Below, one piece after another: positions 11,900 to 42,736 of a stretch of DNA of 51,063 bases; positions within the stretch are counted from its first letter, which is position 1, and every line of letters begins with the position of its first letter. The notes beneath the pieces were generated by a model. The model was given only the letters and a program-made list of their open reading frames with translations. It made no database searches and was not told the DNA's origin. The DNA lies in assembly GCA_011620595.1 (NCBI GenBank), contig WOYX01000031.1, forward strand, positions 1 to 51,063. The letters are read 5' to 3'. The translations under genes and the position numbers were made by a program. This DNA comes from Bacteroidales bacterium. GTDB lineage: Bacteria; Bacteroidota; Bacteroidia; Bacteroidales; VadinHA17.

Positions 11900-12001
11900 A
11901 ATGAAACTTACATGAGCAGTAACTCACAACAGGAAATGATTATTTCTCTTCATGTAAGTTCCATTGGACCAAAAAATAATAATCAAATAATCTAATGAAA
12001 C
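11900..12001 (+). promoter_or_regulatory. Duplicated 5' leader element, copy 1 (upstream of the PHP gene)
   Basis: This ~100-bp element is homologous to the leader of fhs (16138-16236, opposite strand). The first 24 bp (starting aATGAAACTTACATGAGCAG) are identical. TGATTAT, TTCATGnAAGnTCCATTnGACCAA, ATCAAATAA and AATGAAA then follow in the same order. Inside it, ATGAAACTTACATGA and TTCATGTAAGTTCCAT form an inverted repeat around a ~32-nt loop. The copy ends in ATGAAACTTGATAACAAATGA, a 6-codon reading frame whose stop overlaps the PHP start; the equivalent ATG in the other copy is the fhs start. This suggests that a leader with its start codon was copied. Confidence 0.75.
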
Positions 12002-12011
12002 TTGATAACAA

Positions 12012-13091
12012 ATGAAAACAAGAACCTTGTTTATCGCAATCCTGCTGACGGTCACTCTCAACCTGACTGCACAGCGGCGGGTAGTGAACATGCCGGATAT
12101 TCCAGGGTATGTGACGCTGAAATGCGACTTTCACATGCACACTGTCTTCTCTGACGGTAACGTATGGCCAACGCAAAGAATAGGCGAGGCCTGGCGCGAC
12201 GGACTGGATGCAATATCCATAACTGATCACCTTGAATACCAGCCGCACAGGCAGTACATACCCACGGATCACAACGCCGCGTGGGAGATAGCCCGTTCGA
12301 CCGCGGCAAACTATAACATCATCCTCATCATGGGTACCGAGATAACCCGCGGCATGCCTCCCGGCCACCTTAATGCCCTCTTCATCACCGAACCCGATTC
12401 ACTGGTGAAGGATGACTTCATGCAAGTCATTGAGGCTGCCATTGAACAGGGCGCATTCATTCAGTGGAACCACCCCGGATGGAAGAGCCAGCAGCCTGAC
12501 GGAATACCACGCATGTACGACGTTCACCGGGAGCTGATTGCCAGGGGATGGATGCACGGGATCGAGTATTACAATGACGTTGAGTTTTATCCGCTGGTGA
12601 TGGATATGTGCCGCGACAACAGGCTGGCGGTGATGGGCAACAGTGATGTTCACGGCGTCATAAGTGAAGAGTTCAGCGCACCACAGTACTCTCACCGCCC
12701 CATGACCCTGGTCTTTGCCAGGGAGCGAACCCCGGAATCCCTCAGAGAGGCTATGTTTGCACGCAGAACGGTCGTATGGTACGGCGACTTCCTGGCAGGA
12801 TTTGAAGAGAACGTTGCTCCGTTCTTCCGGGCTGCTGTCACCGCCGGAAAGCCCTTCCGTGACGACGGCAAGTCGATCTGGTTTGAACTGACAAACATTT
12901 CTGACCTGCCGATGGAACTTACCGGGGGGCCAGAGGGAGCGCCTGCTGCCGTAAGTCTGCCGGCAAGAAGCAGTGTGATTATCAAGGCTGACCGCAGGTA
13001 CCTTGATGAGCCTGTAAACTATGAGGTCAGCAACATCATTACCGGCACGAATACTGTTTTGAAAGTCGCAATCAGGCCGTCAGCCGACTGA
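12012..13091 (+). CDS. Secreted PHP-domain phosphoesterase (Sb-PDE-like)
   Basis: 359 aa with a signal peptide (LFIAILLTVTLNLTAQ). The PHP metal ligands are in order: KCDFHMHTVFSDGNVWP (HxH plus Asp), ISITDHLEY, MGTEITRG, IQWNHPGW and GNSDVHG. The PDIPGYVTLKCDFHMHT start resembles the Sb-PDE group of exported phosphodiesterases. The last ~90 residues form a beta-rich tail. Substrate is unknown; hydrolysis of phosphodiesters or phosphomonoesters outside the cytoplasm is inferred from the family. It is preceded by a leader shared with fhs. Its 3' end abuts a decayed, convergent beta-galactosidase tail. Confidence 0.85.
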   Translation: MKTRTLFIAILLTVTLNLTAQRRVVNMPDIPGYVTLKCDFHMHTVFSDGNVWPTQRIGEAWRDGLDAISITDHLEYQPHRQYIPTDHNAAWEIARSTAANYNIILIMGTEITRGMPPGHLNALFITEPDSLVKDDFMQVIEAAIEQGAFIQWNHPGWKSQQPDGIPRMYDVHRELIARGWMHGIEYYNDVEFYPLVMDMCRDNRLAVMGNSDVHGVISEEFSAPQYSHRPMTLVFARERTPESLREAMFARRTVVWYGDFLAGFEENVAPFFRAAVTAGKPFRDDGKSIWFELTNISDLPMELTGGPEGAPAAVSLPARSSVIIKADRRYLDEPVNYEVSNIITGTNTVLKVAIRPSAD

Positions 13092-13126
13092 TAACGATGC
13101 CGGCACCGTCCTCCGTGCTGCCTCCA

Positions 13127-13732
13127 GAGAGGCACGATCCGGAATGAGTATAGGTAGCTGTCATCACGCAGACAGTATTGCAGATGTGTACGTGCACCCC
13201 ATGAGTCATCACCGCCGACACCCATCTGGCTGTAGTCGATATTGACACGCACCAGATCTCGCGGTCTCACGTCGTCAATATGGGTGTTGACCAGCCTGGC
13301 ATCAGGCCTGTATCCGGCCAGGCTGCCCGGCGACTCAAAGTCGTCATGCAGGAAGTTCATTGCTGCAAAGCTGAAGAGGGGATCGCCCTCCACCCGTATA
13401 CCCCGGCCGTCGCCGGCGGTAATGGTGAGCCACCTCGTATCCGTCCCGGGCACCGGTTCTATGGTTCCGTAAGGCACCTCCACGGTTGCCGATGCTCCGG
13501 GGGCCAGATCAAGCTGGTTCAGGTTGCCGGAGCTCAGCAGTACACCGTCAGCCAGCACCTCCCAGTTGACGGTGAAGAGCGCGAGGTTCGTGAAGTCATA
13601 TTTGTTCGTGACAGTGACGAGACCTTTTGAGAGGTCAGCAGGCGCGAAGCCGGCATACTGATATACCTTTTTTACTTCACTGAGGGCAGGACCACGCCAA
13701 TCCCTCCGTGAAGAATCTGTTGCCGGGCAGAG
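13127..13732 (-). pseudogene. Headless C-terminal remnant of a GH2 beta-galactosidase
   Basis: The minus strand encodes SRRDWRGPALSEVKKVYQ, then FTNLALFTVNWEVLADG, FSFAAMNFLHDDFES, VNIDYSQMGVGGDDSWG and LYSFRIVPL. These are the final linker and the Bgal_small_N domain of LacZ-type enzymes (about 200 of some 1000 residues). The catalytic barrel is missing. Upstream, the frame meets a TGA at 13733-13735 at the edge of the 30-bp array and has no proper start. Downstream, the natural stop after SFRIVPL is lost and the frame runs to 13019, antisense to the PHP gene. Homology is strong, but no functional protein is expected. Confidence 0.85.
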
Positions 13733-13910
13733 TCAACTTACGCTGAGATTCTGCTGCCAGAGTCAGCTGACGGGCAAATCCTCCGGGCAGAGTCAGCTGA
13801 CGCTGAGATTCTGATGCCAGAGTCAGCTGACGGGCAAATCCTCCGGGCAGAGTCAGCTGCCGGGCATAACCTGCGGACAAGATCAGCCGCCGGGAAGATC
13901 CTCCGGCCTG
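13731..13910 (-). repeat. Six-unit 30-bp tandem array at the mobA 3' end
   Basis: Six contiguous 30-bp units begin at 13731, 13761, 13791, 13821, 13851 and 13881. Plus-strand units start agtcagctga and alternate between two tails, cgctgagattctgctgccag and cgggcaaatcctccgggcag. The units at 13761 and 13821 are identical. The most degenerate unit (13881-13910) is the 3' end of the mobA-like gene, so the array appears to have grown from that coding end. Because 30 is a multiple of 3, spurious ORFs stay open on both strands. There are no spacers, so it is not a CRISPR. Confidence 0.9.
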
Positions 13911-14470
13911 TTGATATTGGTAAAGGCCTTTGTTGTCGCAGCGTCGGAGGGCAGCTCCAGGTAACGGGTGTCGACAAGGGTGTAGAAATCGATCACCGCC
14001 GGGCTGCCGTCGGAAAGGAGGTAGCTCTGCAGCCTTGCATGGATAGTGCACCTGTATATGGCGTGCATGGGCTCAACAAGTCCGTTTACTCTGGGCACAA
14101 GAATATCTGCCTGCGTACTGAGCATCCTGCGGGCCTGTTGCCTGATAAGACCCTCCGAGAGCCACGGCATGTCACCGCCGAAGACGAACAGCAACGGTGT
14201 GGCGGAGGCCCTCATGGCTGACTCGATGCCGGCCAGGGGACCCAAACCGGCAAAGTTGTCAGCCGTCAGGCGCACACCCTGCGGAGCAGGACTCCCCTCA
14301 GGCCATCCGGCAATAATTATCTCATGGAATAATGGGTCCAGAACAGATATGATGCGATCTATGATGGGCACTCCGGCAACCTCTATGAGCGACTTGTTGA
14401 TGCCACCGAAGCGCCTGCTCCTGCCTCCGGCAACTATTGCCGCGGTTATGTCAGGAAAAGGCTTTTTCAG
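13883..14470 (-). CDS. mobA: MobA-like molybdenum cofactor guanylyltransferase
   Basis: Nucleotidyltransferase expected to attach GMP to molybdopterin. The N-terminal loop AAIVAGGRSRRFGGINKSLIEV matches MobA's GGxSxRxGxxK signature. GLGPLAGIESAM, FVFGGDMPWLS, EPMHAIYR and NINRPEDL follow in MobA order. About 195 aa. No ATG, GTG or TTG exists upstream of the signature: the frame opens after a TAA inside fhs, and the only plausible starts are CTG (14470, sharing CTGA with the fhs stop) or the adjacent ATT. A GTG at 14371 would cut off the nucleotide-binding loop. Translational coupling to fhs is likely. Family assignment is good; the exact nucleotide specificity is inferred. Confidence 0.75.
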   Translation of the reverse strand: MKKPFPDITAAIVAGGRSRRFGGINKSLIEVAGVPIIDRIISVLDPLFHEIIIAGWPEGSPAPQGVRLTADNFAGLGPLAGIESAMRASATPLLFVFGGDMPWLSEGLIRQQARRMLSTQADILVPRVNGLVEPMHAIYRCTIHARLQSYLLSDGSPAVIDFYTLVDTRYLELPSDAATTKAFTNINRPEDLPGG

Positions 14471-16137
14471 AATAGTCCGCTTATCTGTCCGTTACTGTCG
14501 ATGTCAATCTTCTCGGCTGAAGGCGTTCCGGGCAATCCCGGCATACGCATTATTGCCCCGGCAATGGGAACCACGAATCCTGCACCTGAGGAGAGCTCTA
14601 CCCTCCGGATGCGCACGGTGAAATCCCTGGGGCGGTTACGCAGGGACTGATCGTCGGAGAGCGACTTCTGGGTCTTGGCGATGCAGACGGCAAGATTGCC
14701 AAGCCCCAGTTCACCTATCTTTTTCATCTGATCCTTCGCCTCAAGGGTATACTCCACATTCCTTGCCCCGTACATTAGCGAGGTTATGGTTTCGATCTTC
14801 TTCTCTATGCTCCATGACATATCATAAAGGGGTGTGAAACAGTCGGTGCATGAATCGGCAGCCTCGATGACAGCTTTGGCAAGCTCGACAGCCCCCTTGC
14901 CTCCGTCGGCCCAGGCAGTATTGACAGCTACCCTGACATTGTGTTCTTCACAGTACTTCGTCAGAAGCTCAATTTCAGCATCGGTATCGGAGCTGAAACG
15001 GTTGACGGCAACCACAGGCCGGAAACCGTAGTAGTGCATGTTCTCTATATGCTTGTCGAGGTTCTCAAATCCCTTGCTGAGAGCATCGGGGTTTTCGTTC
15101 CCCAGCTCCGACAGCTTCATGCCGCCATGATATTTAAGCGCCCTGATGGTGGCGACAATTACTACAGCATTGGTTTTGAGCTTTCCGACCTGCGACTTGA
15201 TGTTGAAGAATTTCTCAGCGCCCAGTTCGCTTGCAAAACCGGCTTCGGTGACCACATAATCACTCATGGATAGGCCCATGCGGGTTGCCAGTATTGAATT
15301 GGTGCCCTGCGCTATGTTGGCAAAGGGTCCGCCGTGGATGATGGCCGGTGTTCCCTCCAGCGTCTGTACCAGATTGGGCTTGAGAGCATCCTTGAGCAGT
15401 GCCGCCATGGCACCCTGGGCTTTGAGGTCACGGGCATATATCGCCTTACCCTCGTAGGTGTATCCGATGAAGATGTTGCCAAGACGCTGCTTCAGGTCAT
15501 CAATGCCGGTGGCCAGGCAGAGTATGGCCATCACCTCCGAAGCCGCGGTGATGTCAAAACCTGTCTCCCGGGGCACCCCCTGGGTTGTGCCACCCAGACC
15601 GACCACTATGTCCCTCAGGGAACGGTCGTTCATGTCCATCACCCTCTTCCATGCTATGGTCCTGGGATCAATGCCAAGATTACCGCTCTTCGACTGTATG
15701 TTATTGTCTACCATCGCAGAGAGCAGGTTGTGAGCCTTCTCCACCGCAGAGAGGTCCCCCGTAAAATGGAGATTGATGTCTTCCATCGGTATCACCTGTG
15801 AGTAACCGCCGCCGGCAGCACCTCCCTTGATGCCAAACACCGGGCCGAGAGAGGGTTCGCGCAGAACCACGGTAGCCTTCTTACCCATCTGGTTAAGACC
15901 CTGGGCCAGACCTATGGATGTGGTTGTCTTACCTTCACCGGCAGGTGTCGGGGTGATGGCGGTAACCAAAATGAGTTTGGCGCGGGAAATTCTCTTTTCA
16001 TCTATCAGTGTCAGCGGCAGCTTCGCCTTGTATTTTCCGTACAGTTCAAGGTCGTCAGCAGTGAGACCCAGCTTTTCTGCTACCTCTGCTATGGGCTTTA
16101 TTTTGGCACTCTGTGCAATCTCGATGTCAGTTTTCAT
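14467..16137 (-). CDS. fhs: Formate-tetrahydrofolate ligase
   Basis: Cytosolic enzyme that activates formate with ATP to 10-formyl-tetrahydrofolate for purine, fMet and one-carbon metabolism. 556 aa, the normal length. The ATP loop TPTPAGEGKTTTS is at residues 63-74. REPSLGPVFGIKGGAAGGGY, DINLHFTGD and the C-terminal MPGLPGTPSAEKIDID are highly characteristic. It is the first gene of a likely two-gene unit with mobA (overlapping CTGA). A strong promoter lies upstream, and the leader is homologous to that of the PHP gene. The pairing with a molybdenum cofactor gene would fit molybdenum-dependent formate dehydrogenase metabolism, but no such enzyme is in the window. Confidence 0.97.
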   Translation of the reverse strand: MKTDIEIAQSAKIKPIAEVAEKLGLTADDLELYGKYKAKLPLTLIDEKRISRAKLILVTAITPTPAGEGKTTTSIGLAQGLNQMGKKATVVLREPSLGPVFGIKGGAAGGGYSQVIPMEDINLHFTGDLSAVEKAHNLLSAMVDNNIQSKSGNLGIDPRTIAWKRVMDMNDRSLRDIVVGLGGTTQGVPRETGFDITAASEVMAILCLATGIDDLKQRLGNIFIGYTYEGKAIYARDLKAQGAMAALLKDALKPNLVQTLEGTPAIIHGGPFANIAQGTNSILATRMGLSMSDYVVTEAGFASELGAEKFFNIKSQVGKLKTNAVVIVATIRALKYHGGMKLSELGNENPDALSKGFENLDKHIENMHYYGFRPVVAVNRFSSDTDAEIELLTKYCEEHNVRVAVNTAWADGGKGAVELAKAVIEAADSCTDCFTPLYDMSWSIEKKIETITSLMYGARNVEYTLEAKDQMKKIGELGLGNLAVCIAKTQKSLSDDQSLRNRPRDFTVRIRRVELSSGAGFVVPIAGAIMRMPGLPGTPSAEKIDIDSNGQISGLF

Positions 16138-16236
16138 TCGTTTATTTGATATTTATTTTATTGGTCGAATGGAGCTTGCATGAATTCTTTTTATAATCAA
16201 ACCCAGTTGCGGGTTACTGCTCATGTAAGTTTCATT
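16138..16236 (-). promoter_or_regulatory. Duplicated 5' leader element, copy 2 (fhs leader)
   Basis: On the minus strand this begins aATGAAACTTACATGAGCAG (24 bp identical to 11900-11923) and runs to the fhs ATG. It includes the ATG-AAA-CTT-ACA-TGA mini-ORF and the inverted-repeat partner TTCATGCAAGCTCCAT. Unlike copy 1 it also contains a short hairpin AACCC-GCAACT-GGGTT. The predicted transcription start lies just before it, so the element makes up nearly the whole fhs leader. I cannot match it to a known riboswitch. Confidence 0.72.
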
Positions 16237-16253
16237 GATGCTTTTTATTTACT

Positions 16254-16286
16254 CAAATATATATTTATTCACTCAGAGAGAACAAA
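16254..16286 (-). promoter_or_regulatory. fhs: Promoter of fhs
   Basis: Minus strand: TTTG (16283-16286), a 21-bp spacer, then TATATTTG (16254-16261). This is an almost ideal Bacteroidota -33/-7 promoter and the best one in the window. The expected start is near 16247, giving a ~110-nt leader. Confidence 0.75.
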
Positions 16287-39192: not shown

Positions 39193-40560
39193 CTATCTTC
39201 TCCACTCATTTACTCCGTCCCTTATACGGTTGCGCCATACAAGCGTTGAGTTTGCATTCGTATAATAAGTAGCATCTTCATAAATCACCTTGTAATTCAG
39301 GTTAAGAGTGCTTGTGGCAGGATTCCATGTGCTTGTGCCGTTGGGCAGCACGTCGGCAATCGGTCTTTCTTCCGGTGTAATCGGGTCGCCAATACCCATC
39401 ACCTGCCACTCAGAGATACCCACAGACTCAGAAGAGTTAATGAAATTGAGTCTTATGCCATCCGTGGTTATTTCATCAAAAGTGGTGACATTGAACTTGT
39501 CTGGTTCAGCTCCGTAGCCTACAGGGTTCGGAACTTCTTCCCAGGTGTCGGTTACCATATTGTGGTACTCCACATACTGATCCGTAGGGAAGAGCAGACC
39601 ACCGCCGTCGCTCCACCAGAAGACGTTGGATGCCCTTATCCTGTAAGGCCTTGCGAAGGTGTACTGTATCCAGCCCCAGTCATTGGCACTGTTCCAGTTA
39701 CCAAACTTGGGATAAGTGTAGTCATTGGTCGAGCTTGCCGGCACCTTACCGTCATTGACAGCAGACAGCGTCTCCCATCCTGAAACGTAGTCAGTGGTGA
39801 CAGTCGGGGGATACTCCGTTGCCAGGTTCACAGGCGTCGGCGGAGGGTTGGGGAGCTTGCGCCATGATACGGTGTTGTCAGGATGGATCCTGTAGTGCAT
39901 AGTATAGCCCGCCCCGTAAAGATGCAGTATACCGTTTGCAGAGAAAGAATCCACAGCAATGGTTGAGGCCGAGATAACGCTTGACATCGAGCCGCTGCTC
40001 ATCTCTGCACCTGTCTCATCGTAGGTGGCAAATGTTCCGGTGTGGTTATAGTAACCCTCGGCCCTGGTGATGAACTTGATAACCACAATCTTGGTATCAA
40101 AATTACTATTGACGCTGTCAGCCGATGACTCCGTCAGACGGAAAGGAATGGCATAATGGTAACTGACGGCATCAGGATCATTCAGGAACTTTGTGGAGTC
40201 GAGGGTGATTGTAAGCCTGCCGATATACTCTCCCGAAGGAATGGTAATTGTATTCGTATTGCTGAGGCTGTAGTAGTCTGACGGCATCAGCTCATAGGGT
40301 TTGCCTGCAAGGAGCGTGGGGTCAATGGTAAAACGTACCCAACGCTCTTCACTGTTTTCAAGGACCCCGCCAAGATATACTCCGATATCAAGCTTAAGTC
40401 CCTCATCCTTGACCACTGTCCTTCCCAGCTCACCGGCGGTGCTGAGCCCGCCTGTAGCCGTTGAAAAAGCAACAGTGGTGTAAGGATAGTCAATTCTGAA
40501 CTCATCGTAGCATCCTGTCAGAATGGCTGTCATTATCAGTATTGCAAATATCTTTTTCAT
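39193..40560 (-). CDS. DUF1735/DUF4361-type surface lipoprotein with nested F5/8C-like module
   Basis: About 455 aa. Lipoprotein signal (AILIMTAILTGC). Residues ~25-170 are a DUF1735-like domain (PYTTVAFSTATGGLST, DYYSLSNTNTITIPSGEY). A DUF4361-like part follows (YYNHTGTFATYDETG). Between about 245 and 387 there is an F5/8C-like module (NLATEYPPTVTTDY, WETLSAVNDGKVP, FGNWNSANDWGWIQY, ISEWQV). The protein then returns to the host fold with the C-terminus WNPATSTLNLNYKV and RNRIRDGVNEWRR. Such lipoproteins downstream of susD are usually surface glycan-binding proteins. ATG 40560 places the signal at the N-terminus, 37 nt after the SusD stop. Confidence 0.82.
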   Translation of the reverse strand: MKKIFAILIMTAILTGCYDEFRIDYPYTTVAFSTATGGLSTAGELGRTVVKDEGLKLDIGVYLGGVLENSEERWVRFTIDPTLLAGKPYELMPSDYYSLSNTNTITIPSGEYIGRLTITLDSTKFLNDPDAVSYHYAIPFRLTESSADSVNSNFDTKIVVIKFITRAEGYYNHTGTFATYDETGAEMSSGSMSSVISASTIAVDSFSANGILHLYGAGYTMHYRIHPDNTVSWRKLPNPPPTPVNLATEYPPTVTTDYVSGWETLSAVNDGKVPASSTNDYTYPKFGNWNSANDWGWIQYTFARPYRIRASNVFWWSDGGGLLFPTDQYVEYHNMVTDTWEEVPNPVGYGAEPDKFNVTTFDEITTDGIRLNFINSSESVGISEWQVMGIGDPITPEERPIADVLPNGTSTWNPATSTLNLNYKVIYEDATYYTNANSTLVWRNRIRDGVNEWRR

Positions 40561-40597
40561 ATTTCCTTTTTTATCTTTTCCCTGGAGGGAAAAAATT

Positions 40598-42736
40598 CTA
40601 CCATCCACTGTTTTGTTTCAAATTACTCATTATGAGCGTCTGATAATACGGCACCGGGATATACCTCATGTAGTCCTGGAAGGTATGTGTTTCCACATTC
40701 ACGTAATCATAGCTGTCATAATTGATATTCCATACTCTCCACTCAATCACACCGCATGACTCGGCATGGTTGATGAAGTTTATCCGGATTCCGGTGGTCA
40801 CTACGGGATTGAATACCGTTGTAGTCCAGCTGTCCATAGCAACTATGTAACCTGAAGGATTCTCCACCGTCTTCCATGTGTCGGTACCGGAATCATAGTA
40901 CTCCAGGTAAACCTCATCCGGAAGGAGAATGCCTCCTCCGTCAGTGAACCAGTATATCTCCGATTTGGCAATTGACGTGGGTTCGCTGAAGTCATACTGG
41001 ATATAACCCCAGTCGTCTCCGCTGTTCCAGTTGCCGAACTTGCCGTTTGAAGCGTCACCTGATGATTCGGGTGTGAAGCCGTCATTGACGGCCGAGAGGG
41101 TCTCCCATGGCGAGCAGTAATCGGTTGAGACAGTTGCTCCCAGTGCGAGGTTGGTAGGATCAGGAAGGTCTGACCTGGTAATCCTGACCCCTTTTACTGT
41201 ATGATCAAGAGGCAGGTTCCACCTTCTGATATCCCAGAAGCGATGACCTTCAAAGCAGAGCTCGAGGCGTCTTTCATTTTGCACGAGTTTCCTGAAAGCA
41301 TCCTTGCCTGCGGCAGCCTGGTCAAGCCGGTACTGGTCCTGCTGGCCTGCCGTGGCCGGATCAGAGTCTATTCCGGCCCTGTTCCTGATCAATGCCAGCA
41401 CCGAGTTTGCCGAGAAACCGGCGGTGGCATCATCGGGGCCGTATGCTTCGTTGGCGGCTTCGATGAAGTTGAGATAAAGCTCAGTCTTGCTCAGGAACAC
41501 CCTGAAGCGGTAACTGGTTGTGACATCACCCGGAGTGAGCCTGACGTTTCTGTTCAGCAGCTTCTTCAGGTAATAGCCTGTGCGGGTACCCTGCAGGCTC
41601 AGGCCGCCAGGTGCGTCAGGGCCGCCGATGTAGGTCTTGATCACAGTACCGTTGTAGTCAGCGCCGTTCCTGAAGATAAACCTCTCAAAACGCCCGTCAC
41701 GGCTTGCGTACGGGTTAGACGGATTATACAGCGTGGTCTCATCTATCGGGTACCCGTTGCTTGCAGGGAAGGCGTCAACAAGGTTCTGCGAGGGGTTGCA
41801 TGAGCCGCTGCCATAAAGTGATGGCGGATAATATGCATACTCCCAGTCATTTGACGAATACTCAGGTTGTATCCAGATGTTATTCAGACTGCCGCTGTTG
41901 TTTGTAGTGTAGTCAAAATCATGAAGGTTATTGCCTCCGTAATAGGCCATTGCATCATGAGCCACCTGTGCAGCGCGGATCCAGAGATCCCGGGTCGAAG
42001 GACCATACGCGGGGCTGGCGGCATAGAGGTAAACCCTTGCCTTGAGCGCCCAAGCAGCCATCGCACTGCCCCTGCCGGCATTGGAATTGTTATTGTACGA
42101 AGCGCTGCCGTTGTACCATTTGGGAAGCAGTACAATCGCCGAATCACAGTCTTTTGCAATCTGCGCCACACACTCTTCATAGGTGTTGCGCGGACGGTCA
42201 AGATTGTCAGAGGTGGTGAGAACATCGGTGACAATCGGGAAACCGAGACATTCGCCACCACCATCGGGATAGCCGGCATAGGTTCTGAGTAGCAGCCACT
42301 CATACCAGGCCCTCATGAAAAAGGCCTCGCCCCTTCTTTGATTCTGCAAAACCTTGTTGAGAGCAGGGTCGGAAACACTATAAAGCAGATCCTTGCAGTC
42401 CCTGAGATAGATATTCAGGTAACCGATGGCCTCATACCATGCATCCCAATTGCCAATAGGCGTGCTCTGCACCGTCCAGTTGCCGAGGGCAAGAGAGTTG
42501 CCTCCAGGGTAAGAAGGTACGGCATTGTCAGTGTAGTACTCAGTGTAATCTATATATTCTGTGTTCAGGATTGCATATGCCTGAGCCAGCAATCCCTCTC
42601 CGTAGACAGCGTTACTCAGAAGCTCGTCAGTGGTGAGATCCTCTATAGGTCTTGGATCAAGATACTCACATGAGACCGCCACAATTGCCGTAAGGAGAAA
42701 TATTATCGTTCGTTTCATCATTTCGGTTTTTATCAT
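40598..42736 (-). CDS. SusD/RagB lipoprotein with an F5/8C-like module inserted near the C-terminus
   Basis: 712 aa against ~500-600 for most SusD proteins. Signal IFLLTAIVAVSC gives Cys23. The TPR-rich SusD core includes NQRRGEAFFMRAWYEWLLL and NERRLELCFEGHRFWDIRRW. After GVRITRSDLPDP (about 516-527) a ~145-residue F5/8C-like module is inserted (WETLSAVNDGFTPES, FGNWNSGDDWGYIQY, VENPSG, VIEWRV; about 526-670). The normal SusD ending FQDYMRYIPVPYYQTLIMSN, LKQNSGW then resumes. The ATG shares one base with the SusC stop (TAATG), so the pair is translationally coupled. In-frame ATGs at 42721 and 42718 are alternatives. Confidence 0.9.
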   Translation of the reverse strand: MIKTEMMKRTIIFLLTAIVAVSCEYLDPRPIEDLTTDELLSNAVYGEGLLAQAYAILNTEYIDYTEYYTDNAVPSYPGGNSLALGNWTVQSTPIGNWDAWYEAIGYLNIYLRDCKDLLYSVSDPALNKVLQNQRRGEAFFMRAWYEWLLLRTYAGYPDGGGECLGFPIVTDVLTTSDNLDRPRNTYEECVAQIAKDCDSAIVLLPKWYNGSASYNNNSNAGRGSAMAAWALKARVYLYAASPAYGPSTRDLWIRAAQVAHDAMAYYGGNNLHDFDYTTNNSGSLNNIWIQPEYSSNDWEYAYYPPSLYGSGSCNPSQNLVDAFPASNGYPIDETTLYNPSNPYASRDGRFERFIFRNGADYNGTVIKTYIGGPDAPGGLSLQGTRTGYYLKKLLNRNVRLTPGDVTTSYRFRVFLSKTELYLNFIEAANEAYGPDDATAGFSANSVLALIRNRAGIDSDPATAGQQDQYRLDQAAAGKDAFRKLVQNERRLELCFEGHRFWDIRRWNLPLDHTVKGVRITRSDLPDPTNLALGATVSTDYCSPWETLSAVNDGFTPESSGDASNGKFGNWNSGDDWGYIQYDFSEPTSIAKSEIYWFTDGGGILLPDEVYLEYYDSGTDTWKTVENPSGYIVAMDSWTTTVFNPVVTTGIRINFINHAESCGVIEWRVWNINYDSYDYVNVETHTFQDYMRYIPVPYYQTLIMSNLKQNSGW

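Follow-up and report, generated by a model that had tools for sequence, protein, structure and literature searches.

Two gene leaders in a Bacteroidales genome as probable copies of a short mobile element targeting ATGAA

Background

In a stretch of 51,063 nucleotides from a Bacteroidales bacterium (assembly GCA_011620595.1, contig WOYX01000031.1; the whole stretch is called the window below), two unrelated genes, one for a PHP-domain protein and the other, fhs, for formate-tetrahydrofolate ligase, are preceded by leaders of about 100 bp that resemble each other. We find that both leaders are probably copies of a short non-autonomous mobile element, similar to those of the IS200/IS605 or REP type, that carries an internal base-pairing guide and targets the pentamer ATGAA. 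The genome holds about 60 copies of the element, both leaders among them, and the element is mobile. A preliminary description of the window had left a MITE-like element side by side with a shared regulatory RNA and an attenuator with a leader peptide; the first of these options is strongly supported by variation in copy number, empty sites, nested copies and a fixed target.

Structure of the element and its copies in the window

The unit measures about 95 bp and consists of ATGAAAC, a stem 1 closing a loop of about 30-40 nt, GTTCCATNNGACC, an A/T-rich stretch of 20-25 nt, two variable bases (NN) and a terminal ATGAA. Copy A occupies positions 11901-11999 on the forward strand and copy B positions 16133-16235 on the reverse strand, and the two align over their full length, as first described, with the identical 24-bp head, the TGATTAT and GACCAA blocks and the ATG-AAA-CTT-ACA-TGA frame all present in both. 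In copy A, stem 1 spans 11903-11962 (arms 11903-11915 and 11950-11962, loop of about 34 nt), the putative guide GTTCCAT at 11958-11964 reads as complementary to the 5' ATGAAAC with one mismatch and, through its last bases, to the 3' ATGAA, and stem 2 (11962-11997) joins CATTGGA at 11962-11968 to TCTAATG at 11991-11997 and contains the terminal ATG. Copy B, read on the reverse strand, has stem 1 at 16171-16233 (arms 16233-16221 and 16184-16171), the guide GCTCCAT at 16175-16169 and stem 2 at 16135-16171, formed by CATTCGA (16171-16165) and ACGAATG (16141-16135). A terminal ATGAA closes each unit: that of copy B (16137-16133) is the start of fhs itself (14467-16137, reverse strand), which begins at the last ATG of the copy, while the ATG of copy A (ATGAA at 11995-11999) comes 17 nt before the predicted start of the PHP-domain gene (12012-13091, forward strand; domain call at 26.8 bits against a cut-off of 26.4).

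A search of the window's own genome (G000, 96% complete) for the 23-base head with at most 3 mismatches, of the kind proposed with the preliminary description, finds 26 places, 13 on each strand, and 0 for the reversed pattern. The covariance model proposed at the same time was built from an alignment (A2) of the 25 complete copies among these 26, one 3'-truncated copy being left out, and gives 61 matches in the genome at E<=0.001 with stricter filters and 78 at the looser E<=0.1, some of the latter being shadows on the opposite strand. Copies are spread over most contigs, frequently before core genes. Their mean column identity is 83%, and the amplification in this genome may therefore be old and its enzyme lost. 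One copy (locus L021, G000:C19:18737) ends after GTTCC and is followed by GC-rich sequence; similar copies that share its upstream flank, at L108 and L089, are complete.

Filled, empty and nested sites

Among 22 genomes of the genus, the window's own included, eight have 0 matches to the element and fourteen have 1-66, with at least 57 in four. The fhs locus, compared in 18 genomes at one locus per genome, carries the element in 4, which are the four high-copy genomes, and lacks it in 14; blastn alignments run continuously across the junction in loci of 11 genomes, and one of the filled loci (G006) holds two copies in tandem. Presence and absence can be followed in both directions at other loci as well: a copy in G019 corresponds to an empty site in the window's genome, and a copy at a start codon in G004 (locus L066) has its empty ortholog in the window at 40163-40985 on the reverse strand, where the 35 bp preceding the ATG are not present in G004. 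Some copies form tandem arrays with a period of 95 bp and others are nested exactly before an internal ATGAAA (L027, L121, L098, L046), and tandem landings are also found on the 5' ATGAAAC of another copy. In two other genera, near-identical copies in G286 and G247 are followed by different downstream sequences, and half of the ten G286 loci fetched have a second repeat directly upstream. A derivation of NN from the target is disfavoured: the empty fhs sites and the empty site of the G019 locus have other bases before the ATG.

Target and start codons

From 143 loci, 138 distinct copies of the element, full or partial, were collected; 107 of them are outermost copies with a readable 3' end. 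ATGAA follows 101 of these 107 and is found at 102 of 259 background start codons (themselves in part borne by the element), a comparison slightly biased by the element hidden Markov model, which itself ends in ATGAA. Together with the empty sites, this agrees with a fixed pentamer target without further target duplication. ATGAA is left at both ends of the element, the insertion being flush at the pentamer, and a 5-bp target duplication would give the same picture.

The terminal ATG opens an open reading frame (at least 80 amino acids, or 40 where the frame leaves the locus) in 79 of the 107 outermost copies and in 20 of 28 in the window's genome. For comparison, 115 of 354 ATGAA sites outside predicted genes are start codons, so that copies are enriched at starts with an odds ratio of 5.9, the p-value of which is optimistic, given that orthologous copies depend on one another and that genes were called as plain open reading frames.

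Stems and internal strand

Covariation supports two stems, one of them with the start codon: in an alignment of all 118 rows (112 distinct, shadows included) that was fitted to the model, 95.4% of cells are paired, slid versions of the stems collapse, cells with double changes number 113 against 36 in shuffled alignments, and in 500 shuffles the covariation score is never reached. For the consensus fold, 20 of the 118 rows of this alignment (A3) were dropped as opposite-strand shadows, truncated or identical copies; two small loop hairpins seen by eye find no support in it. A second set, of 110 distinct copies, was based on a pattern, with no structure model fitted. Of these, 80 of 110 have an NN after CAT that is fully complementary to the NN before ATG (48 of 67 in loci before L180, mainly from the genus, and 32 of 43 in later loci from other genera), against a mean of 20.4 and a maximum of 34 in 2000 shuffles that ignore the kinship of copies. 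Wobbles at NN are G.T in 15 cases and A.C in 2 (9 against 2 and 6 against 0 in the two subsets), and this bias favours folding of the plus strand, as RNA or as single-stranded DNA.

A single uninterrupted internal strand (stem 1 arm-GTTC-CATNNGA) carries stems 1 and 2 next to each other; it is the complement of the joined ends of the element (TCNN-ATGAAAC-stem) except at one conserved mismatch. The internal strand TCATGTAAGTTCCATNNGA is in fact the reverse complement of the tandem junction TCNNATGAAACTTACATGA apart from that mismatch, which is probably why tandem arrays give shadow matches on the opposite strand. The stem and the complementarity are both present and conserved, and may correspond to a subterminal hairpin with a guide for the cleavage sites. 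In IS200/IS605 elements and REPs, tetranucleotide guides beside hairpins pick the cleavage site (PMC6006769 and PMC8266576; these papers and those below are cited from parts of their text). By the mechanism that we propose, the internal strand would likewise serve as guide or splint, folding the plus strand and selecting ATGAA by base pairing; a transposase acting in trans would move the single strand, and the insertion would be tolerated through restoration by the element of the start codon and its upstream region.

Translation and regulation

The GC content of the 20 nt before NN-ATG is 14%, compared with 37% before 277 other starts. In Bacteroidetes, the region ahead of the start codon is described as poor in GC and little structured, and Shine-Dalgarno sequences as lacking (parts of PMC3155529 and PMC6847099), and the element is, to judge by its composition, a supplier of an A/T-rich initiation region of this kind to the gene. 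Position -3 in the element is usually C; A is favoured there in Bacteroidetes (PMC6847099, in part).

A shared regulatory RNA, as entertained in the preliminary description, gains from the start codon lying within a covarying stem and loses from the lack of a common pathway among the downstream genes examined and of an Rfam match. In its explicit form, stem 2 would sequester the start codon until some factor opens it, and copies would have been spread or kept for regulation. The start codon is predicted to be paired with a mean probability of 0.74 over the 110 copies, the NN beside ATG covaries with G.T above A.C, copies at start codons exceed what the availability of ATGAA predicts, and a Prevotella reporter is five-fold lower with a structure of -5.2 kcal/mol (PMC3155529, in part). 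Set against this are stem 2, which averages just -3.4 kcal/mol, the RNA fold of copy B, which is no better than that of shuffled sequences (z -0.79; that of copy A is somewhat better, z -2.25), stems in the genus alignment that have no strand bias (see below), the examined downstream genes, which have no common theme, and the same genes in related species, which do without the element. Regulation alone would, moreover, leave the nested insertions and the requirement for ATGAA unexplained, and we regard a cis-regulatory RNA as unlikely to be the explanation. Regulation by start-codon pairing is nevertheless possible on these predictions, and the element may dampen, switch or spare translation.

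The absence of a match to a known riboswitch, noted at the outset, agrees with Rfam, in which the window has 0 matches at the gathering score and 15 loci of several subfamilies have none over the element. At E<=10 weak matches to unrelated families appear, among them two that place a microRNA model on stem 1 of copy A with scores far under its cut-off. HEARO RNA, which is associated with IscB and inserts at ATGA, has no Rfam match over an element.

An attenuator with a leader peptide fares worse. The frame ATG-AAA-CTT-ACA-TGA is conserved in the clade of the window, and the five-codon frame ATGAAANNNNNNTGA is found in 81 of the 110 copies. Among copies from other genera, by contrast, a five-codon frame ending in TGA is kept in just 19 of 43, the middle codons follow the stem, the CATGA stem may itself give rise to the frame as a by-product, and element lengths are spread evenly over the three reading frames (40, 37 and 33 of 110); a leader peptide is hardly credible on these grounds.

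Comparison with known mobile elements

The element is close in kind to REPs mobilised by TnpA-REP/RAYT, with which it shares short length, dispersal in many copies and a hairpin with a guide-like strand at its foot (parts of PMC8266576 and PMC6006769); the single-strand logic that completes the likeness is our inference. It differs in its length of about 95 bp, its large loops, its position at start codons in gene orientation and the lack of a linked transposase, and it has ATGAAAC and GTTCCAT at the hairpin foot in place of the GTAG/GTGG tag, which certain Y1 classes are likewise reported to lack (PMC6006769, in part). IS200/IS605 elements such as IS608 and ISDra2 likewise combine a fixed short target with base-paired guides (PMC6006769 and PMC8266576, in part), but they bear a transposase gene, of which the element has none inside or beside it, and use two separate guides where a single internal strand of the element pairs with both ends. 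Insertion of IS200/IS605 elements, like that of the element, is not known to leave further target duplication. We therefore file the element beside the IS200/IS605 and REP types, as a non-autonomous element that works in their manner, and not as a member of either group.

Other repeats offer partial parallels. CGTC-tagged REPs are also a dispersed palindromic family whose dedicated transposase is absent, but with another tag and stems of 8-9 bp, and the part of PMC3733652 that describes them never mentions 'start codon'. The TAACTGA repeats of Beggiatoaceae and some Bacteroidetes lie just upstream of the start codons of unrelated genes, essential ones included, with a transfer mechanism that is likewise not evident, and differ as direct repeats of a heptamer from the two-stem architecture described here (PMC4679880, in part). 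A classical DDE MITE is set apart by its ends, those of the element not being mutual inverted repeats and carrying ATGAA in the same orientation. Among the titles and abstract openings of the literature matches listed, there is no account of an element of this kind at start codons in Bacteroidales.

Recombination at a folded, attC-like site, by an integron integrase or a tyrosine recombinase, would account for a long stem whose loop varies and for the ATGAA that both ends have in common. attC boxes have the consensus GTTRRRY, which GTTCCAT does not fit, and the copies are scattered, often before core genes, with no cassette arrays (integrase families were not searched), so that we consider this explanation very unlikely.

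The moving enzyme

An alternative to the filing adopted above is that the element belongs outright to a REPtron or to the IS200/IS605 family and was moved by a Y1 transposase since lost from this genome, a reading that we take seriously while placing it somewhat short of an even chance. It draws on the hairpin, the guide-like complementarity to the ends and the fixed short target, and on the order-wide distribution of Y1 (PF01797), found in 52 of 60 element-positive genomes and 216 of 333 others, an association that is suggestive but confounded, genome size and kinship being uncontrolled. Two Y1 subclasses would also suit it, subclass 1.2 (Cyanobacteria, Bacteroidetes), in which typical IS200 end structures are generally absent, and subclass 2.6 (mostly Bacteroidetes), with atypical ends and copies elsewhere in the genome (PMC6006769, in part). 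Against membership stand 45 Y1 loci without the element at their flanks and the lack of any Y1 match in G000, G014, G020, G290 and G388. As a linked driver, Y1 is accordingly rejected, on its flanks and on the lack of a match in three of the four high-copy congeners, and the weak association across the order is what remains.

Several of these results also weigh against the element as we read it, beyond the kinship that the NN shuffles ignore. No transposase is linked to the element. G000, G014 and G020, with 57-66 element matches each, have no Y1 match, while G017 has six (E<=0.01) and zero element matches; the element flanks none of the 15 Y1 loci from the genus and none of 30 such loci from 15 other genomes with 51 Y1 matches, and at two of these 30 loci, belonging to G117 and G220 with their many copies, an element-like sequence stands at a distance of about 1 kb. 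Neither an excision product nor transposition itself was seen. In the genus alignment, with the same rows dropped as for the consensus fold, wobbles in the stems are not biased towards either strand (38 against 33, one pair with a G.T consensus excluded). The enrichment at start codons, finally, is greater than the availability of ATGAA accounts for, and therefore something besides the pentamer, such as selection, is involved.

Two other drivers were tried and rejected. The DEDD transposase of IS110 has no match in G000, G006, G014 or G020, and the reverse transcriptase domain RVT_1 has no match in G000 and G014 and two matches each in G006 and G020. Behind an asparaginase gene that the element precedes, in a genome with no RVT_1 match, lies an Rfam match to a group II intron (L015:5311-5401, 41.9 bits against a cut-off of 40). 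At L145:1200-2100 a Y1 gene has one copy of a palindromic repeat (GGGTTCCATCCGTCAG...CTGACGGATTCCACCCGCGG) on either side, likely a REPtron and distinct from the element.

The wider family and its implications

The pattern ATGAAACN{40,68}GTTCCATNNGACN{18,34}ATGAA, in which ATGAAAC, GTTCCAT, GAC and ATGAA are set by the query and hence constant among matches, is found in 60 of 393 genomes of Bacteroidales, spread over 42 of 207 genera, with up to 95 copies, and its reversed control has 0 matches in every one of the 393. The stem varies by genus (GAGCATG/CATGC-GA, CATCCATG/GGATG, CCCACATG/CATGTGGG and others). Named carriers of the version in the window's clade (54 stretches) are uncultured metagenome-assembled genomes of Bacteroidales or Bacteroidetes.

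This distribution bears on a broader reading, offered tentatively and with the odds against it, in which a widespread Bacteroidales mobile family would have specialised on start codons by means of an internal splint, an initiation region of its own, a transposase of an unrecognised kind and a stem, perhaps switchable, that is common to the copies. As a rule a mobile element damages the gene that it enters; here the first codon is hit and the reading frame stays intact, in many genera of one order. Many 5' leaders are rewired at once, the filled and empty sites form a natural set for the study of translation without Shine-Dalgarno sequences, and the element points to a transposition enzyme yet to be found. 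If the broader reading is true, the element could enter the 5' end of essential genes and bring its own translation-initiation region, and the start codons of dozens of genes would lie within one common stem that might be switched.

An expanded parent with an internal gene was sought among the at least 57 matches in G247 and rejected: in the 18 stretches fetched, the five 5'-only matches inspected are copies with an extra hairpin or another tail, some of them in tandem, with no gene inside. A variant at L240-L244 in the same genome has an extra hairpin, CCCGAT...ATCGGG, between GTTCCAT and GACC, and has its 5' part in common with near-identical copies that lack the hairpin. Spread by viruses was also considered and rejected, the window-clade pattern having 0 matches in IMG/VR. 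The general pattern has 6 there: four are one sequence without a comparable stem, one lies inside an open frame, and one has the stem. This last (L296:7813-7913) is a copy of another subfamily on an 8.5-kb contig, before an open reading frame that begins MKTNTLLF.

Other features of the window

At 16254-16261 on the reverse strand, 18 nt upstream of copy B, lies TATATTTG, a putative Bacteroidetes-type -7 box; the earlier statement that the element forms the entire mRNA leader of fhs holds only in part, with 18 nt separating the putative box from it. A similar putative box is seen by eye about 21 nt before the ATG in two relatives with an empty fhs site. A sigma-70 scan, whose model does not cover Bacteroidetes promoters, gives 2 sites against 3.3 expected. 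Downstream of the PHP-domain gene, at 13720-13900, the window contains imperfect tandem repeats around GGGCAGAGTCAGCTGACG.

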